In this document: piece by piece, positions 10,535 to 59,620 of the stretch
Layout of the letters: each line of letters begins with the position of its first letter
Position numbering within the stretch: position 1 is the first letter of the stretch
Assembly: GCA_964035575.1 (NCBI GenBank)
Contig: OZ037870.1
Span: forward strand, 1-64,000
Direction: 5' to 3'
From: Rhynchopus sp. YZ270_cl-10
Taxonomy: Eukaryota > Euglenozoa > Diplonemea > Diplonemida > Diplonemidae
DNA length: 64,000 nucleotides
Notes under the pieces: model-generated
Database searches by the model: none
The model's input: the letters and a program-made list of their open reading frames with translations, nothing else
What the model was told of the DNA's origin: nothing
Position numbers and translations under genes: made by a program

Positions 10535-10829
10535 CTGTTTGTGTGGAAATGAAGGACCAAAACTACAAAACAAAAACAAAACAAAGCCACACCACACACG
10601 TATCTTTTATTTCACCCCTCCCGGTCACCCCCATACCAATTTGTGCGAAATAACCAGACTTTTATATAGGGGGTCAGAACTGAGGGCAATCCTCAGTTAT
10701 TGAAAAAAAAAAAAAAATTCCCCTTTTCGGACCTAAAAAAAAAATTTTTTTTTTGGCGTTTTACTGGCTTAGAACAGGGCATTATATAGGTTTCGGGGGT
10801 TTTCGCTGAAACTCGGTCAAAACTCGGTC

Positions 10830-33470: not shown

Positions 33471-34356
33471 TCATTCAGCAGATGCAATCACCGTCAAGAA
33501 CTCTGCCTTCAGGGAGGCACCTCCAACCAAGAAACCGTTGATGTCCTGTAGGGGGGTTGGGAAACAATGTGATTTGAAAATAGAAAGCCCTCTCGTGACA
33601 GTGGACCTAATATTCCAAAACGAAAATTTGAAATGACTCACCGTGCTCCCTTTTCCCTCTTATTGCCAATCTCCATACCTCTCTTGAGTACAACGCTGCA
33701 CAGTTGCCAGCGTTCACAGACCCTCCGTAGAGGATGCGCAGCTTCTCTGACACCTTCGGGCCCACGACATCGTGTACAAGCCCACGCATCGCCTTGTGCA
33801 CATCTTGCGCCTGCTCGGGTGTTGCCACCTTGCCTGTACCAATGGCCCAGACGGGCTCGTATGCGATCACGACGTCGGACCACTTGTCTTTGGGGACAGC
33901 GGCGCAGATGGCGCGGAGCTGCGAGAGGACAACCTCCTCTGTCCGGTTGGCCTCACGCTGTGCGAGGGACTCGCCGACACAGGCAATCACCTTGAGGCCC
34001 TTTGTGAGGGCGGCTGCGACCTTGCCCGACACAACATCGTCGTCTTCTGCGTAGAGCGCACGGCGCTCTGAGTGGCCGAGGATGACCCACTGCACGCCTA
34101 TGTCCGCCAGCATGTCTGCGTTCACCTCGCCGGTAAACGCGCCTGGCTTCACGCTGCAGTTCTGTGCACCCACCTGGAAGAGCGCGTTCGTCAGCTTCTG
34201 CTGCACAAGCGGGATGTGCAGGAACGACGGACACACCACGACCTCCTGCCCATACCCCTTCGCCGCATTGAACAGCGCGCACAGCTCCTCCACAACCGGC
34301 ACCGTCCCATTCGACTTCCAGTTTGCTGCGAACAGCGGCGTCGGCTGGATGGGCAT
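33471..34356 (-). CDS. TPI: Triosephosphate isomerase
   Basis: Exon 1 is 34356-33679 and exon 2 is 33545-33471 (133-nt intron, donor GTATGG, acceptor CCTACAG, phase 0); the product is 250 residues, exactly the usual size. Catalytic and substrate-binding motifs are intact: ANWKSN (Lys), GHSERR (His), AYEPVWAIGTGK (Glu and loop 6) and YGGSVN. Exon 2 supplies DINGFLVGGASL. It interconverts dihydroxyacetone phosphate and glyceraldehyde 3-phosphate. The absence of a targeting extension suggests a cytosolic enzyme. The intron contains the short motif GTGACAGTGGACCT also seen elsewhere in the window. Confidence 0.97.
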
Positions 34357-35173
34357 AATGAAGGTGTAGTGTTGTGTAGGGTTCTGAGGGGGTGTATACA
34401 ATTATGGCAAAGGGGTAGGTGGGATTGGGATGGGACACAAATGATCTGTACTTTATTTCGAGATTTTTTTGCATGGTTTTTAGGACCTAGAAGAGGGAGT
34501 GGGTAGTTTGTGCGGGGGGAGAATTTTGTTGTTGTAGTGTTGCAGCAAACGTAAATTTGCTACGGGGGGGAAGACCAGAGGGGTGACCGTAAAGCCCTAT
34601 GCACGCGGTAGATTTTCCTTTGTAGAAAAATAAACTATTCACGTTGGGGAAAAAGACCCACGAAAATATAGTACCGGTGTAGGGGGGTAAATAAAAACAA
34701 AATAAGCTGAAAATACACCCTCCATGACAGTGTATCTAAAGGAGTGTAGTTAATAGTACAAACGCCTCTGTGACGCAGGCACTGACGGATAAAATTTGGG
34801 CAATAAAAGATGAACCTAAGCCTCTTGTGCTTAGTGTCTAAAATGTCTAAAACACATGGAGGTGTTCAAGGAGCCTCTTGTGGTTCGTTAGGTCGCATAA
34901 TGATGATGTTATCAGGTGTGTTCGCGCGTCTTTTTTTTTGTGTCTTTTCAAAAGACAAAAAACTGAAAGTAAAACATAAAGAGACGACTGTAACCACACA
35001 CTTTTGACAAAAAATACAGAAAAATGGTGTTGTGTACAAAAAGAAACTCACTCTCCCCAACCCCTACCCCGCACACACAAAAAAGAATACAAAGCTCGCA
35101 ACCACCGCTCCACTGCACCCTGTACCCCAAAGTGTAACCTGCTAGCATCCCGCCCCTTCCCCAACCCTCACCC
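34357..35173. other. Intergenic with a GTGACAGTGTACCT-like motif
   Basis: CATGACAGTGTATCT at 34723 resembles motifs at 33593, 46248 and 57269. A CCCCTCAG lies about 30 nt upstream of the TPI ATG. No gene was found. Confidence 0.45.
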
Positions 35174-36977: not shown

Positions 36978-37425
36978 TGTAGGATAGTAGGGCAAGGGCA
37001 AGGGGAAGGGAAAGGGGAAAGGGGAAGGGGGAGGGGAAACTCCCCAAAAGAAAAATGCTCAAAAAATGAACGTTGGTTTGTGTATGTAGATTCTGCGAAG
37101 AATGGAGGGGAAGGGGGAAAGGGGCCGGTGGGTGATAAAGTGCAAGGTGTTTTTTTGTTGTATCGACAATCACGTTATACCTACTACACAAAATTTTGAG
37201 GTGTGAGGGGGGTTTCACCCCTCAAAGACGTTGGGTGGCTGAATTTCCTTAAGATTAGTCATCATTAAACAATGATGCCAGGTACGGGTTTTGGTGTTAT
37301 ACGGGGGCGGGGTTCACAACTTTTCACACCCGCACAAGTGAGTAAGTAAGTAAGCAAAGCTGTGAAAAGTTGGTGCGCAGTTGTGAAAAGTTGTGAATAG
37401 GATTGAAATTTTGCGAAATAGGGTT
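36978..37425. other. Spacer with remnants
   Basis: Positions 37150-37175 hold TTTTTGTTGTATCGACAATCAC-type sequence also present at 12391. Positions 37255-37290 (minus) encode NPYLASLFNDD and a stop, the last residues of the ISG12-like paralogues, here detached from copy A. AAGTAAGTAAG-like and TGTGAAAAGTTG repeats lie at 37318-37400. Confidence 0.55.
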
Positions 37426-38433
37426 TCACAGCTTTGCTTGACTGGTACGGTGAAGAGCACCGATAGCCACACCCGCCATGGCTGTGCTCTGGGCTGAAGC
37501 TACACCACCGACAATGCCTACTAATTGCAGTCCTGCGAACACTGTCGCCACAGGTACGAGCAACGGTGCTGCTGCAACGGAAGCACCAGCAACGGCAGCA
37601 CCTGCAACCAAACCGATCGCCACTTCCTGTACCCTTATGTGTGAAGTCTCTTTAGCCGCAGCGTCGCGGGCAATACGGTGCACCAGGCCTGACAAGATGC
37701 TTTCCACTGCCGCCAACTCTTCATCCTGCACATCACGTGGCAAGACAAAGGTCAGCTCCCTCTGCTTTGCCGCATACCGCACAACAGTCGTCTGCTTTGT
37801 CAACGAAACCTTAACATCGCCACACACAGTAACATGTGTTTTCTGTCCATTAATTAGAGCACCAACACTAGCACCAACAGTCGAACCGCCGACCACAGAT
37901 ACCGTAGCCACACCTGCCATGGCTGTGCTCTGGGCTGCAGCAGCTAGACTACCGGCTGTGACCCAGCCTGCTGATTGTGCGGCTGCAAACAATCCACCCG
38001 CCGTAGGTCCGACGGCAGTGATGCCCAGCATCATGCCCAAGGCAAACGGTGTTGCTGCAACGACACCACCTCCAATCAAACCACCAATCGCCAGATTTTT
38101 CAGACCCATATTCCTTGTGGGTGACGCCTCTTTAGCAGTGTCGCGGGGAACACAGTGCACCATGCCTGACAAGATGCTTTTCACCTCCGCCAACTCTTCA
38201 TCCTGCACATCACGTGGTAAGACAAAGGTCAGCTCCCTCTGCTTTGCCGCATACCGCACAACAGTCGTCTGCTTTGTCAACGAAACCTTAACATCGCCAC
38301 ACACAGCAGCATGTGTTTTCTGTCCATTCCCGTTCCCCGGATACGCAAGAATCTGCCACTCTGCCTCCGAAAGCTTGTATTCCTTCTCCCATACGATGTC
38401 CCCCTCGACACGGATTAACTCGTCAGCGGACAT
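37426..38433 (-). CDS. ISG12/IFI6-like family protein A, internally duplicated
   Basis: 335 residues from ATG 38433 (MSADELIRV). A conserved N-terminal region (about 90 residues, with HAAVCGDVKVSLTKQTTVV and LTFVLPRDVQDEELA) is followed by a Gly/Ala-rich membrane region: AIGGLIGGGVVAATPFAL, GITAVGPTAGG, AAAQSAG, AQSTAMAGVA. That Gly/Ala pattern is the signature of the interferon-inducible ISG12/IFI6 family. Both regions then repeat (from about residue 195), the second copy lacking the first 35 or so residues. The C-terminal acidic tail of copies B and C is missing; its last codons survive at 37255-37290. ISG12 proteins act in mitochondrial or ER membranes in animals; the role here is unknown. 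Confidence 0.65.
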   Translation of the reverse strand: MSADELIRVEGDIVWEKEYKLSEAEWQILAYPGNGNGQKTHAAVCGDVKVSLTKQTTVVRYAAKQRELTFVLPRDVQDEELAEVKSILSGMVHCVPRDTAKEASPTRNMGLKNLAIGGLIGGGVVAATPFALGMMLGITAVGPTAGGLFAAAQSAGWVTAGSLAAAAQSTAMAGVATVSVVGGSTVGASVGALINGQKTHVTVCGDVKVSLTKQTTVVRYAAKQRELTFVLPRDVQDEELAAVESILSGLVHRIARDAAAKETSHIRVQEVAIGLVAGAAVAGASVAAAPLLVPVATVFAGLQLVGIVGGVASAQSTAMAGVAIGALHRTSQAKL

Positions 38434-38814
38434 CTTAAAGGGGTGGTCTGATGTGAGAGGTGGTATTGTGGAGGTGGTTGGAAAAAAAGAAATGGTATTG
38501 TGGACAGGGCTCTCAAGATCCTCCACGAAAAAAGCAGAATTCTCGAAATGAGGAGGATTTCATTTTGAGATCTTTATGGTACCGTGTCCCCCCCAAAAAA
38601 AAAAATTCTCCCAGGCGAAAGCGGTCGTCGCGCGCTTCGCGCGCGCCCCCCTGCCAGTAATCAATACGTCTTCCCACTGAATAATTTTGAAAACAGAAAA
38701 AAACGGGCACGAGGCCTGAGAAAGGTTTGGGGGTAAACCTGCCTTGTGGGACGTGTAATGGGAACGAATCACAAAACAATCAACACAGAGTACGTTGGCT
38801 GAGTTTCTTTAAGA
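38434..38814. repeat. Spacer with GC hairpin and ISG12-like 3' flank
   Basis: The hairpin core GTCGCGCGCTTCGCGCGCG (about 38627-38645) belongs to the family at 10838 and 60577. Positions 38675-38814 are homologous to 44425-44569 (CTGAATAATTTTGA, GGGCACGAGGCCTGAG, CAACACAGAGTACGTTGG) and mark the downstream flank of the duplicated gene block. Another partial copy lies at 46940-46975. Confidence 0.65.
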
Positions 38815-39714
38815 TTAGTTATCATCAAACAACGATGCCAGGTACGGATTTACGGGTATTCCGCGTACCTTGTGGGTGTTCCCCTGGTCTGTTCGCGAGA
38901 TGAGAGGGTTCTCGTCAGCGTGGCTTGAGCTCTCTCCCTTCGCTGCAGGACTGCTTGGCAGTGTGCGTCGCGTGAACATGGCAGACGCAGGCGGCGCTGA
39001 TGGTGTGAGTGGTGAGTCGAGTGGCTTCTCGTCATTGTCCTCCTTGTCTTTGTCTTTCTCCTCAGTGTCAACCTTCATATCCTCAACACCCTCAGTGTCA
39101 GACTTCCTAAGTGCACGGAAAAGAGCACCAACACCAGCACCAACAGTCGTACCACCGACCACAGATGATGTAGCCACACCCGCCATAGCTGTGCTCTGGG
39201 CTGCAGCAGCTACACCACCGGCCATGCCTGCTGATTGTACTGCTGCGAACAATCCACCCGCCGTAGGTCCGACGGCAGTGATGCCCAGCCCAAGACCCAA
39301 GGCAAACGGTGTTGCTGCAACGACAGCACCTCCAACCAAACCACCAATCGCCAGATTTTTCAGCAAACCCATATTGCTTGTGGGTGACGCCTCTTCCTTA
39401 GCAGCGTCGCGGACAGTACAGTGCACCAGACCTGACAAGATGCTTTCCACTGCCGCCAACTCTTCATCCCGCACATCACGTGATAAGACAAAGGTCAGCT
39501 CCTCCTCCATTATCACATACCGTCCCCTTGCCTCCCACACAACAGTCGTCTGCTTTGTCAACGAAACCTTAACATCACCACACACAGCAGCATGTGTTTT
39601 CTGTCCATCCCCGTTCCCCGGATACGCAAGAATCTGCCAGTCTGCCTCCAAAAGCTTGTATCCCTTCTGCCACACTATGACCTCTGCAACACGGATTAAC
39701 TCCTCAGCGGACAT
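38815..39714 (-). CDS. ISG12/IFI6-like family protein B
   Basis: 299 residues from ATG 39714 (MSAEELIRVAEVIVW). It has the N-terminal family domain, then LAIGGLVGGAVVAATPFAL, LGITAVGPTAGG, AAAQSTAMAGVATSS and VVGGTTVGAGVGALF, then an acidic/Lys-rich linker (EEKDKDKEDNDEK) and the tail NPYLASLFDDN. It has one module only, unlike copy A. It is very similar to copy C, including untranslated flanks (PPLTSDHPFK would be read from the leader in all three), so B and C separated recently. A GTACGC near the tail could be a donor, but the frame is intact without splicing. Confidence 0.65.
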   Translation of the reverse strand: MSAEELIRVAEVIVWQKGYKLLEADWQILAYPGNGDGQKTHAAVCGDVKVSLTKQTTVVWEARGRYVIMEEELTFVLSRDVRDEELAAVESILSGLVHCTVRDAAKEEASPTSNMGLLKNLAIGGLVGGAVVAATPFALGLGLGITAVGPTAGGLFAAVQSAGMAGGVAAAAQSTAMAGVATSSVVGGTTVGAGVGALFRALRKSDTEGVEDMKVDTEEKDKDKEDNDEKPLDSPLTPSAPPASAMFTRRTLPSSPAAKGESSSHADENPLISRTDQGNTHKVRGIPVNPYLASLFDDN

Positions 39715-39886
39715 CTTAAAGGGGTGGTCTGATGTAAGAGGTGGTATTGTGGAGCAGAGAGGAAAGAAGAAGAAAAAGAGGAGGAGGGAATGAATGGGGT
39801 CGCTATGGTTGTGGGTGTACGTGGTTTCCAACATCGGGCGCAGGGTTTTCCACAGCAAGCCCTGTTCTTTTTTTCTTTACAATTAG

Positions 39887-40400
39887 TCACGTATGGCAAA
39901 TGATAATGACAATGCGCCATTATGAGAATGCCGCTGTCCACCGGACATTATGTGATATGCGGCATTATGCGCTAATTATGCGGTGTTGTGCTGTTATCTG
40001 CCATCACGACAGCAAAAGTGTTCTGCACACACAACACGGTTGGCGGGTGGGAGAACAACAACAACAATGACAGCGACACCAGAAGTGTCAGTACAACCCT
40101 GACACACGTCTCAAAAAAATAATAAAACCTACATTTTTGAACTATTCTACCGATATACCCAGTGATTTTCATTGGATGCATCCTCCAGGATACTTAGACT
40201 CCCTTCCAAAAGCTCGCGATAGTGGCTGAGACTACCTTCTTCCATGTCTGCTTGGGGGTCTTCCTCAGAATAGCGCAAAATTTTAATGCGCTATTATGTC
40301 CTATTACGGTACTATGCGATTATTATGAGCATGATAGTGCATAAAAATCTGATAATTTATTATGAAATCTCATAAAAAAATTATCATTTGCCATACGTGA
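39887..40400. mobile_element. MITE-like element with 21-bp perfect terminal inverted repeats
   Basis: The ends begin TCACGTATGGCA and close with the exact complement over 21 bp. The 514-bp interior is AT-rich, with many ATTATGCGC-type words and no coding frame. The paralogous stretch at 41590-41680 has the same flanks (GTTTTCCACAGCA..., then TTGTTATTGTTGTTTTC) but lacks the insert, so this is a real insertion. No clean target duplication could be fixed (at most AG or TAG). Confidence 0.7.
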
Positions 40401-40403
40401 AGT

Positions 40404-40680
40404 AGTTGTTTTTTATTGTTGTTGTTTTCCACACACCTTCCTTCAACCCCTGCAGGATCAGTTGTGTTCTTTTTCCCTTTTCTAACACGTTGGGTGTAGT
40501 GACAAAACGTCCTCTCGGACGCAATGCACCTAAAGAGATATTACGCAAAGACATCAGACAGAACAATGCGCACACACCTCAGAAAAAGAGAGTGCGCTGG
40601 CAAATATTCGCCTGTTTGTTGCAACAAAAAGACTCTTCAGCAAAAAAGAGTCAAAACAGGAGAATATAAAGATAAACACA
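40404..40680. repeat. Duplicated flank, pairs with 45665-45935
   Basis: Both stretches hold CCTTCAACCCCTG, GGATCAGTTGTGTTC, ACACGTTGGGTGTAGTGAC and CAAAAAAGAGTCAAAACA with few differences. They are part of the segmental duplication that carries ISG12-like copies B and C. A plus-strand frame of about 55 codons is open in both, but the copies are too similar to show that it is under selection. Confidence 0.65.
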
Positions 40681-42543
40681 AGTAAAAATAAAGTGTAATT
40701 TTTGTACTTCTTTTGTGATTATTTTGTGGTGTATTTTAGGGGTTTTGAGCCACACCATTTCGGCAAAAAAAAATATTTATTTTTGGTCAAAAAATCGCTT
40801 GTAGAGACGTTATAACTTTTGATATAACGCTCGGTGTATGTTAAATTTCATAGACTTAACAATCAACGAAGAGAAAGCACACAAGGATGCTCAAAAACGT
40901 AAAAACGATACATCCCGTCTTATTTTTGACCAAAAAAGGTTCAAAAGTGAAAAACAACAACAACATTTGAAAGGTGGACTACACGTTCTTTCTTGGTTGC
41001 GTGCGTACTTATTTCCTCCCTAACCGATAACCCGTGTATCTCCCGGTTTACCCCCCTTGTACCTGCTGCCACACCAATTATTAATTGTGAATTTATTTTC
41101 CAATATTTCACGCACAGGTGGACAGCCGGAGGGGGCAGCATTTTTGGGGTGGCCCGGGGGCACGGCGCTTAGTTTTTACAAAAAAAATTTAAAACAAGTA
41201 ATTGCTATCGGAAAAAAAACGGGGTGTGATGTGGAACTCCATCCTGTAGAAATAATCTACAATACGCCCAGCATTCTGCTCTTCTGCAGGTATGCTACGC
41301 TCTTCGTACGCTGCCAGACCCACTGGGACGCCAGCATCTGAAACGTTCAAGAAGGGGGGCTGTCCTCTTCGTCCAGCACCATCTGCTCGATAGCGTTGTT
41401 GGACGCCCGCTCGGCAGGCTCGGCGTGGTCCAGCTCGTTTTTGTCCACAGGGTCCCCACATTGTAGTCGTCGTTGGAGCAGTGCGGAAGGAACACAGAAT
41501 GCACAGACTACAACACATCGATCACACCAGGCGCATCAGCACCTCCAGCAAATCGCCAGGATGCTACGGTGGTTTCGAAAATCGCGCGGAGTTTTCCACA
41601 GCACACCCCGTTTTTTTCTTAGCAATTACTTGTCCTTGTTGTTATTGTTGTTTTCAACCACCTTCCTTCAACCCTTGTAGGATCAGTTGTTATTTTTTTC
41701 GCGAAAACATGAAATTACACATTTCAAGAGAACAAATTAAAAAGGGTCCTTATTTGCATTTTTGGGCTCCGCCCGTGCAGTGGTGGGGTCAATCTCGAAA
41801 ATTGGACAATTTTTTGACCACTTAAATTTTGAGAAATATGAGCCCGGTTGCTTATACGTGGGGCCCATTTTCGGCTAAAATTTTCCTCAAAATCTGGTTT
41901 TGTAAAATTGACCCTTTACTCCCCCCCCACATCGATTTCAATACTATACCTTACTTCACCTACGGTTGCCCTTACAGGGGGGTGAAGGAAGGTAAGTTGA
42001 AAATCACAAAAATCAAAAAAAAAAATCACAAAAAATCACAAATTATCACAAAAAATCACAAACAACTACTACAAAGTCACGGTACATTTGGTCGACTTCC
42101 TGCAATCTGAACAGGGTGGAGATCAATAATCACCACACACTCAGAAGCGAGTAAAGAGGCAGCAAAAAGCGTAGCCGGCCTCAGACAGTTGTTTATCTTG
42201 GCGATTGCCAAGGCACGGGAGCTGGCGGAGGCTCCCCAAGCACGAGGTACCGACTCCAACGGAGGAGGTAGAGGTGGTGTGCGCCGACACTGACGCGACC
42301 CCGTTACCGAAGCGACTCCGGAAACCGACGCCCCCCCCGACTGCAATTGTTACATTGCGCTGTCTACAGCACATAGCCGCCACCCAGCTGCACACGCTTG
42401 TGTTCATTGGAAGGGTTGAGCCGCCTCTCAAGGCGCGTAAGACCAAGCCGCCGCCGCGCAACATCGGATTGGCCGCCCACATGACGCTGTCATCGCAAAT
42501 GATGGCATGTTCCTTCTCCAATGGATTTATTGGGTGTATGTTA
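40681..42543. other. Repeat-rich spacer
   Basis: It holds a third partial copy of the duplicated flank (41587-41705), a dispersed-repeat copy (41755-41805, GTGGTGGGGTCAAT), and AATCACAAA repeats at 42000-42065. There are also two GC-richer islands with open frames in both directions. At 41295-41510 a minus frame reads ELDHAEPAERASNNAIEQMVL, and at 42180-42540 a plus frame reads EVPTPTEEVEVVC. Either could be a decayed exon, and neither is assignable. Confidence 0.4.
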
Positions 42544-43084
42544 TACTGTGGTGTGTTCCGGGGTATGGGATTTTACACATCTTCACACATCTTCACAACT
42601 CTTCACAACTTTTCACAAATTTTCACAAATTTTCACAACATAATTTTGGCCATATTTTTGTGAAGAATTGTGAAGAGTTGTGAATAGTTGTGAAAAGTTG
42701 TGAAGAGTTGTGAATTGAAATGAAAATTTGGATGAAAAAAACACAGACGTTGTGAATATTTGTGAAGAGTTGTGAACAGTTGTGAAGAGATGTGAAGAGT
42801 TGTGAAGAGTTGTGAATTGGGAAAACCCCCCCTTTTTTTCTCCAATTCACAACTCTTCACAACTGTTCACAACTCTTCACAAATATTCACAACGTCTGTG
42901 TTTTTTTCATCCAAATTTTCATTTCAATTCACAACTCTTCACAACTTTTCACAACTATTCACAACTCTTCACAATTCTTCACAAAAATATGGCCAAAATT
43001 ATGTTGTGAAAATTTGTGAAAAGTTGTGAAGAGTTGTGAAGATGTGTGAAGATGTGTAAAATCCCATACCCCGGAACACACCAT
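42544..43084. repeat. Near-perfect palindrome of about 540 bp
   Basis: The left arm, 42544-42820, runs from GTGTGTTCCGGGGTATGGG through units of the TTCACAACTC type to GAATTGG. The right arm, 42840-43084, is its reverse complement and ends CCCATACCCCGGAACACAC. The arms differ mainly by one extra 10-bp unit, and the spacer is about 20 bp. Each arm is itself composed of TGTGAAGAGT-type 10-mers, so the structure could fold into a very long hairpin. Confidence 0.92.
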
Positions 43085-43214
43085 ACTGGGACAATGTGGT
43101 CAGATCGTCTTCAGACCTGGAAAAGTGCACGACATATAAAAGCTTCCGACTGCGGCGGGCGGCCCATTTTCACCCTTTTCTTGTTCCTCATCCTCTCTAT
43201 GTTTTCACTTGCCC

Positions 43215-43415
43215 CTGATGCTGACAAAAATCACGGATTTGTCCATTTCGGCGTATTGACCCCACCACACAACTGTACTGTACAGTATTCCCAATCCCCT
43301 GTGTATACTGCGGAAATTGACCAAAAACGAGAACTTGTCCATTTCGGAAAATTGACCCCACCACTGGCCGGACGGATTCCGGAAATGCAAATGCAAGTGT
43401 TTTCGGCGTGACTGT
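43215..43415. repeat. Dispersed-repeat copy containing the single-copy version of the 9-mer
   Basis: GTCCATTTCGGxxxATTGACC and CACCAC occur twice (43238-43268 and 43338-43370), and CGGATTCCGGAAATGC follows. Between them CTGTGTATACTGCGGAAATTGACC is the complement of the edge of the 9-mer array at 14380-14400, here with only one unit. Confidence 0.7.
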
Positions 43416-43544
43416 GTATACTCTATGTACTGTGCACTACCACAGCACAGGACCTCATAAGCTCTCAGTAAGCTCTCACAGACTCTCACAGGCTCTCGCA
43501 GCCTGTTACGTGTCTCACGGAGACGATCATAGATCACCCAACAA

Positions 43545-43825
43545 AAAATCACAAAACCAAAAAAAAAAATCACAAAAAATCACACAAAATCACAAAAACC
43601 AAAAAAAAAATCACAAATAATCACAAAAAATCACAAACAATCACAAAAAATCACAAAAACCAAAAAAAAAATCACAAATAATCACAAACAATCACAAAAA
43701 ATCACAAAAATCAAAAAAAAAATCACAAATAATCACAAAAAACCACAAAAAATCACAAACAATCACAAAAACCAAAAAAAAAAATCACAAATAATCACAA
43801 ACAATCACAAAAAATCACAAGATTC
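43545..43825. repeat. AATCACAAA minisatellite
   Basis: Irregular tandem units of AATCACAAAAA, some with CC or TC inserts. Similar short tracts occur at 42000-42065. Non-coding. Confidence 0.85.
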
Positions 43826-43967
43826 TTTTTCATAATGTTGTGACTTTTTGTGATTTTTTCCGAAAAAACACAACGCGCAACTTCCCTGCGCGCCCGGGCC
43901 ACCCCAATTTTTTCCCGAGGGTTGCTTCACCTGGGTAAGTGAAATACTGGTATAAATCCACGAAAAC

Positions 43968-44116
43968 ATGATTTTTATCTCCGCCTGAGACCATGAATTG
44001 TACGCCCCTTTACAAAATCGTTCAGGAGGGGCGTGAATGTATTTTCCAGTATTTCAGGGGGTGAAAAGGGGGCGCGTTTGTGAAATTCATGGTCTCATTT
44101 GGAGATAAATCATTGT
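43968..44116. mobile_element. Short MITE-like element with inverted termini of about 30 bp
   Basis: ATGATTTTTATCTCC...GAGACCATGAATT at the left is repeated inverted at the right (AATTCATGGTCTC...GGAGATAAATCAT) with a few mismatches. The middle of about 80 bp holds a GGGGCG-containing imperfect hairpin. No coding capacity. Confidence 0.6.
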
Positions 44117-44569
44117 ATTGAACAAATGGAAACCTGCATCCAGCAACAGGTTTTGAAAAGAACAAAATAGAAAACGACTTCAGGATATGACAGTGAAGCA
44201 TAAAGCATAAATGAAAGACAAGAAAACACTTTTTCGTTTATCTCACCACAAAATATTTGTGGCGATTCACGGATGAATGTGAATGATGTGTATGTTAGTG
44301 GAAAAACCAACTCCGCTAAAGCGGGCACGCACCATCCGTCGTTTCATTTATATGTGCCAATGCTTGACTATTCAAGTAAAAAGAGAAACGTCATCCAAAG
44401 GACGCTGAATGTACATTCATAGTGTCACTGAATAATTTTGAGAGGAAAAAAAAAAACAGAATAAAACGGGCACGAGGCCTGAGAAAGGTTTGGGGGTAGT
44501 GGTAATGGGAAACGATAATCACAAAACACATCAACACAGAGTACGTTGGGTGGCTGGATTTCTTAAAGA
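44117..44569. other. Spacer, ends in the ISG12-like 3' flank
   Basis: AT-rich DNA with no gene seen. From about 44425 it is the duplicated flank described at 38675-38814. Confidence 0.5.
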
Positions 44570-45430
44570 TTAGTTATCATCAAACAACGATGCCAGGTAC
44601 GGGTTTACGGGTATTCCGCGTACCTTGTGGGTGTTCCTGAGTGATTTCCTGCTCTCTCCCTTCGCTGCAGGACGGCTGCGTTGCGTGACACGGCAGCCAG
44701 GCGGCGCTGATGGTGTGAGTGGTGGGTCGAGTGGCTTCTCTTCATTGTCCTCCTTGTCTTTGTCTTTCTCCTTCTCCTCAGTGTCAGCCTTCATATCATC
44801 AACACCCTCAGTGTCAGACTTCCCACGTGCACCGAAAAGAGCACCAACACCAGCACCAACAGTCGTACCACCGACCACAGATGACGTAGCTACACCCGCC
44901 ACGGCTGTGCTTTGGGCTGCAGCGACTGCACTACCTACAATGCCTACTGGTTGTGCTGCTGCGAACCATCCACCCGCCACAGGTGCGACGGTAGTGATGC
45001 TCAGCCCAAGACCCAAGGCAAACGGTGTTGCCGCAACGACAGCACCTCCAACCAAACCACCGATCGCCATCTTTGTAAGCAAACCCATATTCCTTGTGGG
45101 TGACGCCTCTTCCTTAGCAGCGTCGCGGACAGTACAGTGCACCAGACCTGACAAGATGCTTTCCACTGCCGCCAACTCTTCATCCCGCACATCACGTGGT
45201 AAGACAAAGGTCAGCTCCTCCTCCATTATCACATACCGTCCCCTTGCCTCCCACACAACAGTCGTCTGCTTTGTCAACGAAACCTTAACATCACCACACA
45301 CAGCAGCATGTGTTTTCTGTCCATCCCCGTTCCCCGGATACGCAAGAATCTGCCAGTCTGCCTCCAAAAGCTTCTGTTCCTTCTGCCACACTATGACCTC
45401 TGCAACACGGATTAACTCCTCAGCGGACAT
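44570..45430 (-). CDS. ISG12/IFI6-like family protein C
   Basis: 286 residues from ATG 45430. The N-terminal domain is almost identical to copy B (both have VVWEARGRYVIMEEELTFVL, a short insertion relative to copy A). The membrane region differs more (LLTKMAIGGLVGGAVVAAT, LSITTVAPVAGG, AVAAAQSTAVAGVATSS), followed by EEKEKDKDKEDNEEK and the same NPYLASLFDDN tail. The central linker is shorter than in B. Faster change in the membrane and linker parts than in the N-terminal domain is visible by eye. Confidence 0.65.
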   Translation of the reverse strand: MSAEELIRVAEVIVWQKEQKLLEADWQILAYPGNGDGQKTHAAVCGDVKVSLTKQTTVVWEARGRYVIMEEELTFVLPRDVRDEELAAVESILSGLVHCTVRDAAKEEASPTRNMGLLTKMAIGGLVGGAVVAATPFALGLGLSITTVAPVAGGWFAAAQPVGIVGSAVAAAQSTAVAGVATSSVVGGTTVGAGVGALFGARGKSDTEGVDDMKADTEEKEKDKDKEDNEEKPLDPPLTPSAPPGCRVTQRSRPAAKGESRKSLRNTHKVRGIPVNPYLASLFDDN

Positions 45431-45576
45431 CTTAAAGGGGTGGTCTGATGTAAGAGGTGGTTTGAAAGAATAGTTAAATAACATAAAGTGCAAGATGTAT
45501 TTTTTTTTTTTCCTTTGACGAGTGGTCTTTATCGCATGCTGGTTATATGTGGCTGTTACAAAAATAAAAACATTAT

Positions 45577-49219: not shown

Positions 49220-52200
49220 TCAAATGCTCTCCATGAACAGCACAAACTCGTCGTAGGTAAGAACGTTCTGTGGTTGTGGTGTTGGTTGGTAAAGAACCCC
49301 AAATTGGTGTGGCTGACGACCCCAAAATAGCAGAAAATAGCAGAAAGTAGCACAAAATAGCACCCCCTTTCAGCCACACCCCAAATATCAAATAAAAGCA
49401 AAACATACGTCGCCGTTCGAGTCGTACGCCATGAAGATAGGACGGAGGCTGTCGAGGTTGCCCTCTTCTCCCATGCCAAGCGCAAGCTGTGTGTGTTTTT
49501 TGTGTGTATTTTGCAATGCAATGCCGTTTGGCAATGAATAAACTTTGATGCACATCTTTGCCGGAATCTTTTCAATCATCTCAAGAAAACAACTTTTCCA
49601 AAAGAATCCAACAAATACCTGCTCTAAAGTAAGCCTTCCTTCTATCGAATATGCATCGAAGAACTCACGCAGCTCATCACGGTCCACACTCTGCTTCGGT
49701 GAGGTAGGGTTGCCTCCGTTTGCCTGCGAAATGTCGGGGAGCTCTGAGCCCATGGCTTCTTTTGATCCGAGACCAGCTGCCGCCTTGATGATGGTGTGGT
49801 GTGCGGTGTGCGGGAAGGCCTCCTTGAGCATCTGGAGGAAGGTGATGTGGGGCTGTGTCGCGAAGACGTTTTGGATGCGCTGCAAGATGCCCTTCTTCAG
49901 CTGCTCATTCGACACTGCATGGGTACGTACCGATCCCTGCGTGCCTCCACCTTGCCCTTTCACAACACTGTGCCGCCCCTTCGGCAGTCTAGGCGTAACG
50001 TTCAACTCCCCAAGCGATTCGTTCGAGGTGTACACCCGCACCTCCTCCTCCGTGATCCTCCCCCTCCGCCCGACGTCGATCTCATCGAACATCTCTCCTA
50101 AGACTGCTACCTGGTCTGCAGTCACCTTCTTCCCAGACTTATTCCATTCCACCAGGTTGTTGATCTGTTTGATAAGATACGTCGGCACAGCAGTACCCTT
50201 CAGATGCACGGCCTCCAGGGTAGGCACCTTTTTGATAAGCTGCAGCAACGCCTTTCCTGTCGCGAGGGTCAGATGTTTGTTGCCACTCAGGTCCAATTCT
50301 GCGACAGTTTCGCTGTTCTGCAGAGTCTCGCAAAGGAGCACAACACTGTCGTTTGTGAGGCCGTTGTCCTTCAGGATGATGCGAAGAAGGGAATCATTGC
50401 AAAGTCGGATGAGATCCACAAAGGGAAGAATCGACGCAATGTAGTTGCACGTCAGGTCCATCACATTCAGATCGAAGAGCAGTGGCGTCGTCGGGCACGT
50501 CCTTGTGAAGAGAGAGTTCGGCTTCACGTTGTGCCTGCGGCACTCCGAGACATAGACCTCGCGAAGGGACAGCCCCTCTTTCATGTACTCTTCGCGCCGC
50601 ACCTCGAACTCCTTGGAGGAGAGACGCCACGTGGTGCTGTCAAGGTTCTGTGTGTCCCCAAGGAGGTCGTCCTTGGAGACCATCATGCCTGCCTGCCCTA
50701 CCACATCAGCCCCTTTGTTGAAGGACGTGATCACAAAGGGCGACCACGTGTCGTTCTGTTCGTTTGTCGTGCGGAGTGGGCAGAGGTCAACGCGAGAGCC
50801 GTTTGGCTTGCCTGAGGTCGTGGGCTGGTTGCGGCCGATGCCGTGAACGACAAGGTCCTTGGGTGGTTCGGCATAGGGTTGGGTAGTGTAGGTGTTGAAG
50901 ATAGAGTTGTCAACTGGGGTGTAGTGGTTCTGCACCCCCGCATAGACAGGGGTTTTGGACTGCGCAAGGTGCTGCTGCTGGCGTTCGCGGTTGTGGATTT
51001 CGATGAGCATGGCGCGGCGGAGCTGTGCCTCCTCACGTTCCCGCTCGACACGTTCCCTGTTGAGTTGTTGTAACCGCGCCATTTCCTCTGCGAAGCGGGT
51101 TCGGTCGCGTACTCGCTTTTGGTTCTGCACATCATACGTCAGCTTCTTGGACGCACTCAAGCCCTGCTTCTTCGGCGGGCTCGAAAGGCCTAACGTCTCC
51201 ATGTCTTCGCGATCCCCAACCAGCGTGCTTGTGTCCGACGCAGTTGAGGATGTCTCAGAAGCGCGACGCTTCTTCTCGTCAATGACCTGCAACCGTTTGC
51301 GGAGCACAGTCACCAAATGCTCGTGTGTGTGTAGTGAGTCCTTGCGTGCGGCACGATCCCGTGAGGACCGTTCTGTGCGCTCCATCTGTATGCGGAGGCG
51401 CTCTTTGCGTGCGAAGGCAGCTTCCAAGGAGAGCTCTGTCTCTGGTGGTGCGTTGGCACGTCGTGGCGGTGGTGGGTGGAGCGCCATCTTCGCTGCATGC
51501 GCCTCGCGATGTGCGAAGATGCGTTCCCTAGCTTCGCACTGCCGCCGCTTCACAAGGAGAAGGTCTTCTTGCCGCTGCCGTTCGTAGCGCCTGCGGGTGC
51601 GCGCCTCCCATTGCCGGCGACGTTCGTCAAGAAGGGCCAAGGCAGCTTTGCGCTTTGCTTCGAGGAAGGCGCGGAGGCGTTTGTCTCTGTCTGATATCTT
51701 TTGACTGAGACGGCGCTTTGCGAGGGTGGCACGTGCCTCCTGCTCGAGGAGACGTGCTTGGAGCTTAGCCTGCCAGTCTGCGTGCATGGAGCGAACGTTC
51801 TGCAGGCGTTCGAGACGCCTACGTTCTGCTGCAAGGTCGTCGAGGTGGCGTTGGCGCAGCCACTCCCGCCACTGTGCGTCGCGGTCTGCCTGTGCTGCCT
51901 CCTGCCGCTCCATATGCTGGAGACGTGCCTGCAGGCGCCGGTCACGCTCGGCGTGCAGCCCCTCCAGGTACTCCTCATACCCCTTTGCACCCTTCTGCTG
52001 TGAGAGCAGAACATGGTGCTTCCCAGAAGACGCCTCCACGTAGGTGGGCAGCCCGTCCCACGAGCTTTGGTACTCGCCGTTGGCAGCACCAAAACGCATG
52101 CCCTTGCCAAACCCGCCGCCGCCGCCGTTGCGGGCAATGTCGGGTGCGTCGTACGTAGCATCGCTGCCGCCTTTGGTGTTCGGCTTCTTGTGGAGTGCAG

Positions 52201-55200
52201 CCTTGTTGTGGCGTAGCTTGGTCTGCTCGTCGTCGTACAGGATGCGCTGCTTGGAGGCCTGAGTCACGTCCTTGCGGGTGCGTGCCTTGCGCAGCTGCTC
52301 CACCTCCTCCTTCACATGCCGCTCCCTTACCTGCAGATCCTTCTCAAGCGCAGTGCGCCGCTCGATAGCCGCCTTGCGTCGTGCCTTCATCTCCTCCTCC
52401 TCCGCACGCAGCTCGAACACCATGTCCGCCTCCTCCTTCTTCTTGCGCTGGTGCACGCTCTTCACACGCTCCTTCTCTGCATCGCCGCCCTTCTTCACGT
52501 CGATCTGCAGCAGGTCCAGCTGCGCCTGCATGTCCTCCTTGCGTTTTGTGTGGAGGCGGGAGACGCGACGCTGTTCGCTTTCGAAATCTTCATCTTCATC
52601 GCGTGCATGGCGTGCGGCGGCCTTGCGGATCTTTGCCACATGCCGTGCATGCCCAGCTGCATAGTCGTCCACAAGCCTCTGCCACTCAGGGGACGAGAAA
52701 TCATCCACGAGGGATTCAACATGCGTCACGGTGCTGCCTTCGCATTCTTCCTCGTCGGTGTCGTCGTCTGCCTCTGTTGTGCCTTTGGGCCCGAGGCGTC
52801 GCTTCTTGCGCTGCACGAGAGACTCGTCGTGCCTGATGTCTCGCAACACTGATTCACTGCGGTCGCCTGCACGCCTTTGGATGGTGCGTACGCGGTGCTC
52901 TTCACGACGTTGGTCTTGCTGCATTTGGCCTTCTAGGTCTGCGAGTTGTGACTGCAGTGCACGGCGTACCTCTTCATGCACGTCGTCTTCGCCGTCTGCA
53001 GGGGGTGGCGTCTGCTGCACTGCTGCCCGCATGCGTGCCGCCTTCTTCTCCAACACAATCCGCTTCTGCGCACCACGCTCGCGCACCCTGCTCACAGCAG
53101 ACGCATCGGCCGCCTTCCTCCTCTCATGCATCTCCTGCCGCCGCTCCACCGACTGCTCCAACCCTGCTGTGAAGTAGGCACTCAGTTCGTCCTTGGAAAA
53201 CGGTGACGAGGAGGACGGTGCAGGGTCAGTGCCCTGCGCGTCTCTGTCTCTGTCTGTGGTCGAAGGTGAAGGAGGGGTGCGAGCGTCTGTAGGTTGGATG
53301 TGTTTGTTGACTTCGTTCAGAAGGCTCTGCATGTCGCCTTCTGTCTGTGGTTGTGGTTGTGGTTGTGTCTTTTTCTTGGGTTTTGGTCGCTTCGTGGCTT
53401 CTGTGGTCTTCAGTTCGCGGTCGATGCGGCGTTCCAGCGCATTGCGTTGTAAGCTTTTGAGGCGTTTCTTGCCTCTGCGGAAGACTTCCTTCTCGTGGCT
53501 GACTGCAGCGTCGATCTCGGCAAGGCGTTTGTGTGTAGCGGCGACGAAGCTGTCTGCGAGGGACGCTGATTCGCCGTTGTCGTCTGTGCAGATGGCGGTC
53601 GCGATGTCGAGGAGTATGTCCGCTGCGCCTGCTGCAGGTGACGCAGCGTCCTGCCGTGCGCTGTCCAGCTCCGCCAGCAGCTCGTCGCGTTCTGCCTCCA
53701 GCTCCTCGACAGCCTCCGCATACGCCTCGTGCAGCGCAGCCTTCTCCTCAGAGTGCTCTGTGTCCTCACGGTGGTCCATGCGCTCCAGCTCTGCCCGCGC
53801 GTCCTCCAGCGCACCCTCTATGGAGTTCTGCCGCAGCTCCTCGTCTATCACAGCAAGCTCGGCCGTGATGGCATCCGTCTCCTCCTCGGCAACAGCAAGC
53901 GACGCATCCTCGTGCGTGGTGTTGCCTGCGGGTGTGGTGTCGTGGGGCTTGTTGCCTGTGGGGTCGGTGTTGTTGTTGTTGTTGTTGCTGGTGTTGTTAT
54001 TGCTCCTGGAGTCGTGATTGCTTTCAGTGGTGTGGTTGTTGTGGTTGCGCGTTGTGTCAGAGGTGTTGTCTGGTTCGCCGGCATTGCTGCGGCAGGTGCT
54101 GGGCGTGTTGCCCCTGCTAGGGTTAGAGGTAACAGGGCCGAGGCCTGCTGCGCCTGAGCCACCTGCGGTTGTTCCTGGTTCACCTGTGCCGACATCACCT
54201 GCGTCACTCGCGCCTGCGCCACCTGTGTTTGTACCACCTTGGCCAACAGTGGGTACACCTATGCCTGCACCCATGCCTGGGCCACCTGCGCCTACATCAC
54301 CTGCGTCTGTGCCTGCGCCACCTGTGTTTGCACCACCTTGGCCAACAGTAGGTCCACCTATGCCTGCACCCATGCCTGGGCCACCTGCGCCGACATCACC
54401 TGCGTCTGTGCCTGCGCCACCTGTGTTTGTACCTCCTGTACCTGTGGGTCCACCAGTTCCTTCGACATCCGCGACTGTCGGCGTCCCTGTGACCGCACCT
54501 GCCCTACCTGCGCTAGTGCCTGGGCCTGCATCTGCACCACCTGTGACAGCATCACCCAAGTTATTAGTGCCTGATTCTTCTGTGTCGACTGTGGTACCTG
54601 TAACCCCACCTGCGCCGTCGCCACTCCCTGTGCGACGGGTGTTCCCATCACTGTCGTTGTGCCCCGCATTGTGTGCCTGCGCTGTGCCAATGGCATCTGG
54701 GCTCGCGTTACCCTCAGAGACACTACCTGTGACGGTTGGCTCGCCAGTGTTGCCATGCTCATGCGAACCGCTTTCACCCGTCCCACTGTTGTTCTTCGCA
54801 CCTCCGCCAGTGGCGCTGTCGGCACTGGCACGGGAGTAAGCACCACGCTTTGTGTCTGTCGCACCACCTTGCCGGTGTTCGCTGTCCTTCCGCCTGACGG
54901 AGTCCCCATCACCTCTGCTGTCTGCTTGTGGGCTGGCGCTTTCGACGGTTTCTGTGCACCCACCACTGCTACTTCTCTCTGCGTCGTCCGATGCTGGCAC
55001 AGGCACAGGGCCGCTGCGATCATCGTGTTTGCGGACATCACCGCTCACGTTGACGTTCACGTTCCTATTGGCCTCGTGCGCACTTCCATTCTGCTGCACG
55101 CCGCCGCCGCCACGGTTGTCTTTCTCCCCTGCCCCTGCCCGCTTGGATCGGTCGCCAGGAACACTTGCACGCCTGCCGCCCTTCTGTTCGGGGGCGTTCT

Positions 55201-56596
55201 TTGCTGCGGGCAGCTTGTCACGCGCGAGGGAACCTCTCTTAGCAGCTGCGGCGTTGGCAACGTTGCGCTCTGTGGACGTGCCACGCCGCCCTGCACCTGA
55301 ACCTGCACCTGCACTTTTGTCCTTCTCCTTCTCCTTGTCTTTCTCCTTTTTGTCTCCGTCCCCTTTCCGCTTCTCCAACACACTCACGCGCCGCTCTGGC
55401 AATGAACCTCTCCGTAGTGCGACACCAGTCTTTGATGTCTTCCGTTCGTCCCCTTTTGCAGGTGCCTTTGGTGCTCCGGACCGGCTGGACTTGCGACCCC
55501 CGACTTTGCTGTCATCACCACGACCCTCACTTGATGCATCGTCGCCTGCACCCTCTTGGTTCGCCTTCTGCACGTCGGTAGCCTCCTGCAGCTCTGCCTG
55601 CGTGGCAGGTGGCGGCAACGTGTTTGACCTGGCCACCCACTCCTCTTCTACAGCCTTGCTACGTGAGTACGCACGTCCCTCCTTCATCAGCCGCATGCAC
55701 GTCAGCAGCAGGTCGTGGTACTCCCGCACATCCGCCGTCTCACACCAGATGTCCGCAAACTGAAACATCGCGTGTGCAAACATCGCTTGGTCCATGTAGC
55801 CCTTTCCGCAGCTGTCGTGCGCCCAGTCCTTTTCGATACACATCTTGCACTCCTCCTCTCCGCTGAAGGGGACGAAGTTCTTGAACAGCGTTCTCCCGAC
55901 CCAGGAGTAGATGTCGACGTCCACGACGCGAACCTTTTCGCCTGCTTCGAACCCACTCACCTTGGGCATGAGCTGCCACCAGTCCTGCAGCACGGACTGG
56001 ATGGTCTCGTGGAACTGCACCTTCTTCCTGCGGTACTGGTTCTCCTGCGAGTACATGTCGAGGTTGCCCTGGAGCCGGTAGGTGCACGTCAGCTCTTCGC
56101 CTTCTTCCACGTCGCACAGAATGCCGTGGGAGGCGATCTGCTTCTTCAACTTCTCTCGCGCATGGCCGTATCGTGAGTCCTTTGCAGACACGGAGTCCAT
56201 GTCCAGCAGAGTCGAGAGCTTGTTGGACTCGTAGTTGATACGGAGACGGCGGGTCAGCTCGCTGTTCTTTTGGCTGATGAGGCCACGCATGGCGGAGAAG
56301 CGGGCACGCTTTTCATCATCAATGTTTGCCGCCCGCTTGAGGACCACCTGCCATACGGACAGCGACTTAGCAGGGGACAGCGGGGTTGCGGCCTTCAACG
56401 GCGTCCGCGTCGATGTCGTAGCACCGAACCCATTCCCAGTCGACGCTGGCGACGCAGGGGACAAGGGGGACACCGGCGACTTCACCAGCTTCACAGAGGA
56501 ATACGCAGACGGCCGCGACGACAGGTTGTGTATCGCACGCACCACGTTGCTGTTGCTCTTGCTGCTCACGGACGCACCTATTCCACCGATCTCCAT
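49220..56596 (-). CDS. Giant coiled-coil protein with LRRs and C-terminal EF-hands, 2411 residues
   Basis: Exon 1 is 56596-49409 and exon 2 is 49267-49220 (141-nt intron, GTATGT...CCACAG, phase 0). The splice falls inside an EF-hand loop: DSNGD from exon 1 and NVLTYDEF from exon 2 make it complete, which confirms the intron. The order is a folded N-terminal part of about 340 residues, a long disordered section, a Gly/Thr/Asp repeat (units of about 37 residues with GAGGPGMGAG, about 730-850), about 900 residues of charged coiled coil, LRRs of the ribonuclease-inhibitor type (ILKDNGLTNDSV, VAELDLSGNKHL), and two or three EF-hand-like loops. It is probably a Ca-responsive cytoskeletal or flagellar scaffold; that is inference. 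Confidence 0.75.
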
Positions 56597-57883
56597 TGTG
56601 TTTACTTTTATGTTCTTTTGCACAAAACCCGCGAGGGCAACCCCCCCTGGAGAAATAAAGGAGTTGGAGTTGACATGACGTCGTACGGATGAAATCACAA
56701 ATACGCTGCGGCCAGTGAAAAGCACTTCAGGCAGAGGTTGATACGAAGGAGACGATACTGTCAGTGTGCTTCTGACGCACTCCTATCTGATATATCTGAT
56801 GGGTCGAGTCCTTCGGGGGAGGACGCACTTCTTTTGTGTTGGTGACGACACCTTGTCCTGAGATCAGAGAGGACGCGTTTACATAAAGCTTACAGAGAGA
56901 AGTCAAAATACAAGTTTGTTTGCATCAAAAATAAGTCTGTGGGCTTTTTTTTAGTATCCACGTCGGACGCATATCTTTAAAAAGAATTTTTTCTTTTTTC
57001 CCTTTTTCTTTTGTTCGTCCCCACATAAGGGACACACAGATCAAAAGGGTTGGGGGCGGTAGCAGGACTACCGCAAAGATAATGAAAACAAGAAGAGAAG
57101 AGGAATTGGAGGGAATCCCGGGGCCCAAAGGAAACTCCAAAAAGCCCGACACAGGCACACACTTGGTACACAATGAACACAAAGTCGGTTCGCCAAGCTG
57201 AAGTGCCTGACCATTCTTCTAAGCATAATACACGGTATGTAAACATGAGTTGAAACACAAAGCCCTCTCGTGACAGTGTACCTTGGTACATTACTGCACG
57301 GGTTGACCTCCTGTGCAGAAGGCACTTCATCGCAACGTATTATTGCATGCGCCACTCGGGTTTGCAACCTTTTGGCGTTCAACGAAAACAATACGTGTGG
57401 TGTTCCAGAAGGGGGTATGGGGAGTTCCTGGGCTGATAGTATTTTTTTTTGTATTTTATTTTAACATCAAGAATCAAAAAAACACAAGAGTTTATACGGT
57501 GTGTGTATCGTGGATACCAGCGTGTCTTTTTGTATTTCAAACGGAAACCAGCACACCAGATACAGAAACATCCTTCCATGCTAGCGGCTACTAACTTAGC
57601 CCTCACAGAACGAAAATTGGAACCCCGCTCCATTTCTGGAGTTAGAGACTACAACAAGGTGCTAGAGGTCTCAAACAGGGTACAGATTATTGTTGAAAAT
57701 AAGACTGGATTTTGAAAAATGCATTTCTTATGTACGAATAATTCGTTGGGTTAGTGCACCTACCATGGAGATAGTCTGCACTGTGTTTCTTTTGGAGGGG
57801 GAGCTCGTTTACTAGAGACCGTTCGTTCGCGCCAAAGATGAACCGCGTAGTATATACATCGTTTCTGACAGCATGTCCTCTGC
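56597..57883. repeat. Spacer with a duplicated copy of the ankyrin-gene upstream block
   Basis: 56815-57115 is highly similar to 59695-60030. Both contain CTTTTGTGTTGGTGACGACACC, AAAAATAAGTCTGTGG, GTATCCACGTCGGACGCATA and GACTACCGCAAAGATAATG. At 59.7 kb the block is upstream of the ankyrin gene; here it sits upstream of the giant gene. The motif GTGACAGTGTACCT lies at 57269. No gene was found in the rest. Confidence 0.7.
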
Positions 57884-59620
57884 TCACTCCTCGTACCGTG
57901 CAAGGTAGTCACTCCACTTCATGCGGTGTTTGGAGCTGACGTGCCGCCGCACAGACGCCTCTGACGCAAACGGGACACCTGCAGCTGTCTGTGCAACGCC
58001 ACATTCACGGCAGGAGTGCTCCGTCGCGTCCTCCTCCTCCTCCTCCTCACTCCCCTGCTCCTCCTCCGCAGTCTCCGTTGCTTCCTCCACTTCCAGCTCC
58101 TCCCGTTTCCTCTTCGCCCCTCTGCTCTCCTGACCAGGTGGCGTCTTTGCAAGGCGCCCACGCAGCAACTCCGCAGTCTCCTCTGAGTAAGACTCCGCAA
58201 GTGCGAGGCAGGTCATCCCACCGCTCGTCATGTGCAGCGGGTCTGCCCCGTTGTCGAGGAGCACCTCGCAGACGTCGAGGCTGTCCTTCACCACAGCCTG
58301 CTCCAGAGCGGTGGTGGCACCGCCGTCCACCTTTGCACCGTGCTCCAGCAGCAGCTTCACCGCAGACACCTTCCTTGAGGAGGCTGCATGCGCAAGACAC
58401 GTCCACCCCTTTGTGTCCTCCACCTCCAGGTCTGGTGTCGTCGCCTCAAACACAAGCCCCATACCACACAGAGCAGCCTTCCTTGCAAGGTACATCAGAA
58501 CTGTCTGCCCGTTGTCGCTCTTCTGGTTGATGTCAAGTCTGTCGCTTTGCAGAAGTGCCTGCAGGTTCAGCCAGTACCGCTTCTTAGCCACGTGCATTGT
58601 GAGTGTGTCGCCGCATTCATCAAAGACGTTGGGATTTGCACCCAAGGACACAAGCTTTGCCACATATTCGTGGTCATCTGTCTCCTGTACGTGGCGGATC
58701 AAAATTGTATTGTTCTTATCCGAGCACACAGTGTCAATGTCCATCCCGCATGCCACGAGAGACTCCACATTCAGCACCTTGAAGCTATAACCCCTGCGTA
58801 GACTGGCATTTGGGTCAGCACCCTTCTGCACCAACAGCTGCAATGTCTCGAGTGGAATATGCCCACGTACCCTCGCGAGCACATCTCTGTCGACAGCAGC
58901 ACCGTGTTCCAACAGCATCGGCAGCAGGTTCACGAAGTGCCCATCCTTTCGACCACACAATATCGTCACTGTGCCGTCAAGGGGGGACACGGGAATGAGT
59001 GCCTCGCAGTATGGTACTTCTTTCTCCATTGCGGCGGCATCATGCTTACGGCGGCTATAGCCCCACTGACAATTAACAGGCGTAAGAAGTGCCTTCAACA
59101 AATTGTTCTTGAATCTGTCAGACCCACGTGCAAGTGTGGCATCGACAAGGGTTCCCATGTCGCTCTCCCGCAGGGCACCTATACTCAAAAGTATGTCGTG
59201 GTCCACTATCAGGTTAAGCACAGTGGGGTCGTCCAAGGGAAGGGCACAGTCCGGTCTCGTCAAACTAACACGAACATCAGCCTGCAGCAACCACCCAACA
59301 ACATCGTAGCTTTTACTGAGTGTTGCTGTGACAACACTCTTCCAACCAAGGGGGATGTCACGCTTCGCCAGCTCCTGTTCGGCAAAAGCCTTGGGGCACG
59401 GCACAACCTCCACACAACCACCCGCACTGAGGCGCGCCACACTCTCGTCGTCGTCAAGGGAAATGCCCTCGGGGACCAAACGCATCTCAAAGGCATCCCC
59501 CACACCACTCAGGTGTGCAGCAACAACACCCCGCACCACGCGACGCAGCTCCCCTATGCGTGCCTCACCCGACAGCTCGCACAGCTCCTCGTGCACACCG
59601 CATTTCACATGAAACTCCAT
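57884..59620 (-). CDS. Ubiquitin-like/ankyrin-repeat/C2H2 protein, copy 1
   Basis: 578 residues from ATG 59620 (MEFHVKCGVHEEL). Residues 1-75 look like a ubiquitin fold (FEMRLVPEGISLDDDESVARL...GGCVEVV). Some ten ankyrin-like units follow, e.g. DILLSIGALRESDMGTLV, LPMLLEHGAAVDRDVL, QLLVQKGADPN, KLLLEHGAKVDGGATTAL, EVLLDNGADPLHMTS. After an acidic stretch (TAEEEQGSEEEEEEDATEH) comes a C2H2 finger (CRECG...SVRRHVSSKH). The role is unknown; ankyrins usually bind proteins. The frame stays open 139 codons above this ATG through the duplicated upstream block, which is more likely leader. Confidence 0.8.
   Translation of the reverse strand: MEFHVKCGVHEELCELSGEARIGELRRVVRGVVAAHLSGVGDAFEMRLVPEGISLDDDESVARLSAGGCVEVVPCPKAFAEQELAKRDIPLGWKSVVTATLSKSYDVVGWLLQADVRVSLTRPDCALPLDDPTVLNLIVDHDILLSIGALRESDMGTLVDATLARGSDRFKNNLLKALLTPVNCQWGYSRRKHDAAAMEKEVPYCEALIPVSPLDGTVTILCGRKDGHFVNLLPMLLEHGAAVDRDVLARVRGHIPLETLQLLVQKGADPNASLRRGYSFKVLNVESLVACGMDIDTVCSDKNNTILIRHVQETDDHEYVAKLVSLGANPNVFDECGDTLTMHVAKKRYWLNLQALLQSDRLDINQKSDNGQTVLMYLARKAALCGMGLVFEATTPDLEVEDTKGWTCLAHAASSRKVSAVKLLLEHGAKVDGGATTALEQAVVKDSLDVCEVLLDNGADPLHMTSGGMTCLALAESYSEETAELLRGRLAKTPPGQESRGAKRKREELEVEEATETAEEEQGSEEEEEEDATEHSCRECGVAQTAAGVPFASEASVRRHVSSKHRMKWSDYLARYEE

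Follow-up and report, generated by a model that had tools for sequence, protein, structure and literature searches.

What are the three neighbouring genes between positions 37,426 and 45,430 of a protist contig, how did they arise, and what might their proteins do? The window analysed here is a stretch of 64,000 nucleotides, positions 1 to 64,000 of contig OZ037870.1 of Rhynchopus sp. YZ270_cl-10. Each of the three genes joins an N-terminal domain (N-domain) to a Gly/Ala-rich module that resembles the animal ISG12/IFI6-16 proteins. The reading that we favour, with about even confidence, is that they encode a family of membrane-anchored proteins particular to one lineage, that of a diplonemid-like protist, and were produced by fusion, local multiplication and exchange.

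Three fused genes and their single-part relatives

Three open reading frames (ORFs) were found on the minus strand, at 37426-38526 (A), 38815-39858 (B) and 44570-45493 (C). All three showed a conserved ATG behind a common leader (38433, 39714 and 45430 in A, B and C, respectively), and counted from it the proteins have 335, 299 and 286 residues. The order of parts was the same in all of them, an N-domain of ~107 residues followed by the ISG12-like module, which bore out the sequence-only reading of three minus-strand paralogues with this architecture. The N-domain was 97% identical to that of C in B and 79% in A. B and C continue into a tail whose last 21 residues were the same in both, with the C-terminal end NTHKVRGIPVNPYLASLFDDN. 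This tail had been called acidic; it proved to be of mixed charge, with 20 D/E versus 12 K/R in the 96 residues of B and 18 D/E versus 16 K/R in the 83 residues of C. The leaders of A, B and C shared the ending CATCAG-ACCACCCCTTTAAG before the ATG, and the CATCAG 14 bases before the ATG of B is a possible trans-splice acceptor.

The genome searched comprises 152 Mb in 126 contigs, the window opening contig C38 (1,518,216 bases); all copy counts are lower bounds. The whole C protein matched at least 10 places, the N-domain at least 7 and single modules at least 4 and 5; merged by hand, these places comprise the three fusions and the copies that follow. Both parts also occurred alone, the module in a 95-residue gene at C38:200268-200552 (the module-only gene) and the N-domain in a 185-residue gene on contig C19 (the C19 gene). 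In addition, one module copy was broken by an in-frame TAG (C38:209425), and on contig C80 a broken N-domain copy had disrupted frames. One match of the whole C protein, on contig C74, covered the charged tail only and was taken as chance.

When the full C protein was compared with 5.8 billion proteins, four matches were obtained among the 7996 candidates scored (those sharing most words with the C protein), namely the three proteins of the window and the C19 gene. As judged by this protein search, the combination of N-domain and ISG12-like module is new, being found nowhere else among the scored candidates. Two scans of viral_contigs, with 28 and 35 pattern matches, confirmed no relative, and a viral origin of the family was set aside. 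A first search of the genome with PF06140 returned nothing; 14 control genomes likewise gave nothing, and the result is therefore not evidence of absence. Among the ISG12-family papers listed, titles and abstract openings pointed to no ISG12 gene of a protist that carries an extra domain, and the main text of PMC10161547 contained neither 'ISG12' nor 'interferon'.

A Met was present at the start of the module in 3/3 fusions (first base 38109 in A, 39372 in B and 45088 in C). This suggests a fusion in which the N-domain came to lie upstream of an already complete, small ISG12-like gene, the direction being inferred from the position of the Met. Such an MG start was also seen in 6 of 21 small proteins matched by a module profile, although the query itself had such starts and many matches came from short contigs. 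The presence of both single-part genes in the same genome supports a fusion of two genes; the alternative to joining is the fission of an older fusion. On the fusion reading, a small, complete ISG12-like membrane gene would have been placed behind a soluble N-domain gene, and the fused gene would then have multiplied locally, with later exchange of sequence between the copies.

History of the three copies

The B and C sequences differed at 5/342 N-domain sites, 30/267 module sites and 18/246 tail sites (N-domain against module, Fisher p = 2e-7). Silent changes followed the same pattern, with none at 78.8 N-domain sites against 9 at 78.8 module sites (p = 0.003, rounded counts). At sites where two of the three copies agreed, the N-domain showed 32 shared by B and C and 2 shared by A and B, while the module showed 20 and 22, respectively (p = 1.2e-5 versus the N-domain). 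These patterns show B to be a mosaic with A and C, best explained by gene conversion or exchange between copies. Since the silent sites of the N-domain were unchanged too, the contrast in rate between B and C is read as a product of this mosaic history, and as sequence evidence it gives no support for fast selection on the module.

The sequence-only reading held that the membrane part changes faster than the N-domain, and this stood in part. It failed within the window, where the B/C contrast reflects the mosaic and where A and B were more alike in the module (72/84 residues identical) than in the N-domain (85/108). It held in an older comparison, which uses different gene pairs for the two parts: nonsynonymous divergence (dN) was 0.134-0.166 for the N-domain and 0.325-0.396 for the module, with synonymous divergence (dS) of 0.43-0.50 and 0.31-0.42, respectively. 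Versus the C19 gene, the N-domain of C had a dN/dS of 0.31 (0.16-0.59) and that of A one of 0.33 (0.18-0.58), which indicates constraint on the N-domain relative to that gene. For the module versus the module-only gene, dN/dS was 0.80 (A), 1.27 (B) and 0.87 (C), and every interval spans 1. All 6 intervals among the window copies also span 1, and positive selection was neither shown nor excluded.

Copy A had been described as having the full architecture in duplicate. In fact only part of it is doubled, and in degenerate form: the second half begins at NGQKTH (window 37851), with the first 35 residues of the N-domain missing, and its module has lost the GPxAGG core and retained two hydrophobic stretches. 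A ends without a charged tail, and a 64-base remnant of the tail and 3' flank is left downstream.

This state of A, rearranged and with its tail lost beside a dispersed repeat, could mean that the locus is one of gene birth and decay, with recent duplicates drifting under little function and frames open by chance or conversion. The broken copies on C38 and C80 fit such a history, as does a dN/dS near 1 among the window copies. We consider it unlikely as an account of the family, given the full frames of B and C with their identical C-terminal end and the constraint on the N-domain relative to the C19 gene.

Relation of the module to the ISG12 family

To place the module, we built a test profile from five PF06140-labelled proteins and compared each module with 2000 composition-matched shuffles. 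The module of A scored 30.4 bits (best shuffle 6.8) and that of B 18.4 bits (best shuffle 9.5), with 0/2000 shuffles as good in either case. The module-only gene reached 8.7 bits (1/2000 as good), C 5.8 bits (3/2000) and the second module of A 5.5 bits (42/2000). With the composition correction of HMMER off, 2/2000 shuffles were as good for C and 1/2000 for the second module of A. On these scores the A and B modules are ISG12-like beyond their amino-acid composition, as had been proposed from the sequence. The module of C is marginal and appears ISG12-like through its kinship to B (69/89 module residues), and the second module of A, whose score was not convincing, is not demonstrably so.

A profile query made of six module sequences, of which one was a fragment cut off by a stop, gave the 21 small proteins mentioned above (E 7.4e-5 to 0.77), which carry a core of the type GPxAGG / FAAxQS / QSxAM to varying degree. 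Ten of the 21 were scanned with Pfam; P0025 passed PF06140 with 43.1 bits and six others matched below the cut-off. A second profile search, started from five of the 21, added a further four PF06140-labelled proteins together with a protein of the fungus Clonostachys (E 4.1e-4). The available part of PMC10051545 lists in a table a fungal protein with PF06140, in which an ISG12-type module is joined to Ferritin_2, a precedent for the fusion of such a module with a different domain. Together, these two fungal entries indicate that ISG12-type modules also occur outside animals. A wider 12-protein ISG12 profile gave 48.9 bits for A, 43.6 for B, 28.2 for C and 33.6 for the module-only gene, with 0/2000 shuffles as good for each, and 5.9 bits (22/2000) for the second module of A. 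This profile is partly circular because five of its members (P0013, P0017, P0020, P0022 and P0025) had been obtained with the window modules as query, and it was set aside as the main test; P0025 belongs to both the five-member and the 12-protein profiles.

Several results weigh against the reading that we favour. The curated cut-off of PF06140 (Ifi-6-16) is 29.1 bits, and in the Pfam scan A scored 16.3 bits (E 0.0094) and B 8.8 bits (E 2), while C, the module-only gene and the part of the broken module copy before its stop were not listed. The five-member profile was marginal for C. The structure models were poor, with predicted local distance difference test (pLDDT) scores of 51 and 34, the latter for the module (33.6). 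Hydropathy gave no second transmembrane helix in B or C: the modules of A, B and C and the module-only gene each had one hydrophobic 19-residue stretch (mean >=1.6), and among the reference proteins there were two in 4/6 and one in 2/6. IFI6 is described as having two transmembrane stretches with a short link between them (PMC10687481, available part). As the cut-off is not reached, the module is termed ISG12-like here and is not counted among PF06140 members. The sequence-only reading was to fall if no ISG12 match rose above background and the predicted structure lacked helical membrane hairpins. On the first point Pfam was weak but A and B stood above the shuffles, and on the second the module model was too poor to decide for or against hairpins.

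A Gly/Ala-rich membrane segment that is alike by composition and convergence would also leave every copy below the Pfam cut-off and C marginal. We judge this quite unlikely, as A and B each exceeded all 2000 shuffles and the module search led to small proteins with the same type of core, among them the PF06140-positive P0025.

The N-domain is possibly PH-like (PH superfold: EVH1, Ran-binding, PH; some seven strands capped by a helix at the C-terminus). The Pfam scan gave no PH family above cut-off for it, the best being PF25353 (PH_2nd_LRR) in A (E 0.032, 14.3 versus 27 bits), and five N-domain sequences scanned separately gave no PH family. Other candidates were rejected. PrgH (E 0.00052 for A) was below its cut-off and recurred in 2/5 N-domain pieces (best E 0.035); ArgoMid (E 0.0063 for A) was below its cut-off and recurred in 1/5 (E 0.17). 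The remaining non-ISG12 Pfam matches of A were each under their cut-offs. PDB matches of an N-domain profile to acetolactate synthase (E 1.7-1.8 over 27 columns) and two PDB matches of C (E 1 and 1.8) were taken as chance. The description of a local paralogue family whose N-terminal domain lacks known relatives was supported.

If the genes encode the membrane-anchored family that we favour, the module would most likely insert in an organelle membrane, like animal ISG12 proteins. The N-domain would have a protein or a lipid as its partner; the charged tail of B and C would stay exposed and contact another partner. The proteins may act as membrane tethers or adaptors.

The genes had also been likened to defence or conflict genes on the strength of domain doubling and uneven change. 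Of these two grounds, the doubling is incomplete and degenerate, and the unevenness between B and C is best explained by exchange. As conflict or antiviral effectors, their N-domain would recognise a parasite or stress component, their module would perturb a membrane or trigger cell death, and recombination would follow an arms race. Local duplication, mosaic exchange and the module dN/dS values versus the module-only gene are compatible with this, as are the antiviral and apoptotic roles of animal ISG12 proteins (for IFI6, see the available part of PMC10687481). With the intervals of those values all spanning 1, few copies across the genome (as lower bounds) and no viral relatives in the two viral_contigs scans, we hold it to be very unlikely. 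Slimmer still is the chance that they are protist effectors of innate-immunity type, with a partner-binding domain before an ISG12-type module, exchanged halves and a conflict role predating interferon. If a defence reading were true, the role of a vertebrate antiviral family would reach back to early eukaryotes.

Genomic setting and comparison with ISG12 proteins

Table 1. Positions of the fused genes, their parts and adjoining remnants (window coordinates).
Feature	Position	Strand	Remark
Gene A, ATG to stop	37426..38433	-	335 residues
A N-domain and linker	38110..38433	-	residues 1-108
A first ISG12-like module	37852..38109	-	internal Met at start
A second N-domain copy, partial	37636..37851	-	without first 35 residues
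A second module, without GPxAGG core	37429..37635	-	42/2000 shuffles as good
Remnant of A's lost tail end and 3' flank	37228..37291	-	90.6% identical to 44543-44606
Dispersed repeat between A's stop and tail remnant	37356-37419		
Gene B	38815..39714	-	N-domain 39373-39714, module 39106-39372, tail 38818-39105
Gene C	44570..45430	-	N-domain 45089-45430, module 44822-45088, tail 44573-44821
B leader upstream of ATG	39715..39754	-	homology to A extends to 39754; A and C have matching leaders

Between B and C, a 545-base stretch (window 42549-43083) was 90% identical to its own reverse complement and sits inside AT-rich 10-base repeats. Overlapping ORFs with an ATPase-like look and no Pfam support were seen at L009:487-1347 (-) and window 9052-10597 (-), and a 50%-identical relative adjoins the broken module copy; we take them to resemble retrotransposon-hot-spot/Crinkler-type proteins.

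A pattern for the spliced-leader end and 5' splice site (<=2 mismatches) matched 686 places (427 + 259) in the genome and 0 in the reversed control. Three copies that were inspected read ACCAACGATTTCTAAAGCTACAGTTTCTGTACTTCATTG followed by GTATG, a leader that resembles the diplonemid spliced leader. Spliced-leader RNA genes were clustered, for example at C1:1392690-1395462. An earlier spliced-leader pattern had matched two genome places only, neither with a following GT. At L027:1479-1519 a spliced-leader-like exon without a GT after it possibly derives from a reverse-copied trans-spliced mRNA.

Elsewhere in the window, a triosephosphate isomerase ORF (33607-34401, -) had 1if2 and 1amk as its best PDB matches, which we take to be Leishmania enzymes; the gene has an apparent GT-AG intron, with the conserved ending DINGFLVGGASLKAE resuming in another frame after CTACAG. 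Taken with the spliced leader, these matches mark the genome as euglenozoan and most likely diplonemid. Two ankyrin-repeat paralogues (57884-60037 and 62313-63992, -) were 84.9% identical over 570 aligned positions and both end in a Cys/His-rich C-terminal part. Near-perfect tandem arrays comprised 186 copies of the 8-mer AGCTAAGG (5034-6522) and 79 copies of the 9-mer ACAGTATAC (14393-15099), the latter open in several frames. A single open frame of 2445 residues (49388-56725, -) contains long coiled-coil-like and repeat stretches.

The genes extend ISG12-like modules to Euglenozoa, a group remote from animals; the protist that carries them is a distant relative of trypanosomes. With both single-part genes in one genome, they offer a tractable case for what ISG12 modules do without interferon. 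Compared with the ISG12/IFI6-16 family (FAM14; PF06140), the window modules differ in scoring below the Pfam cut-off in all copies, in sitting behind an N-domain that, among the database candidates scored, was confined to this genome, in being followed by a charged tail in B and C, and in having one hydrophobic stretch in B and C rather than two. What they have in common with it is a Gly/Ala-rich module of ~85 residues with the core GPxAGG, FAAxQSAG and QSxAM, and, for A and B, scores well beyond those of their shuffles when a profile of labelled members is used.

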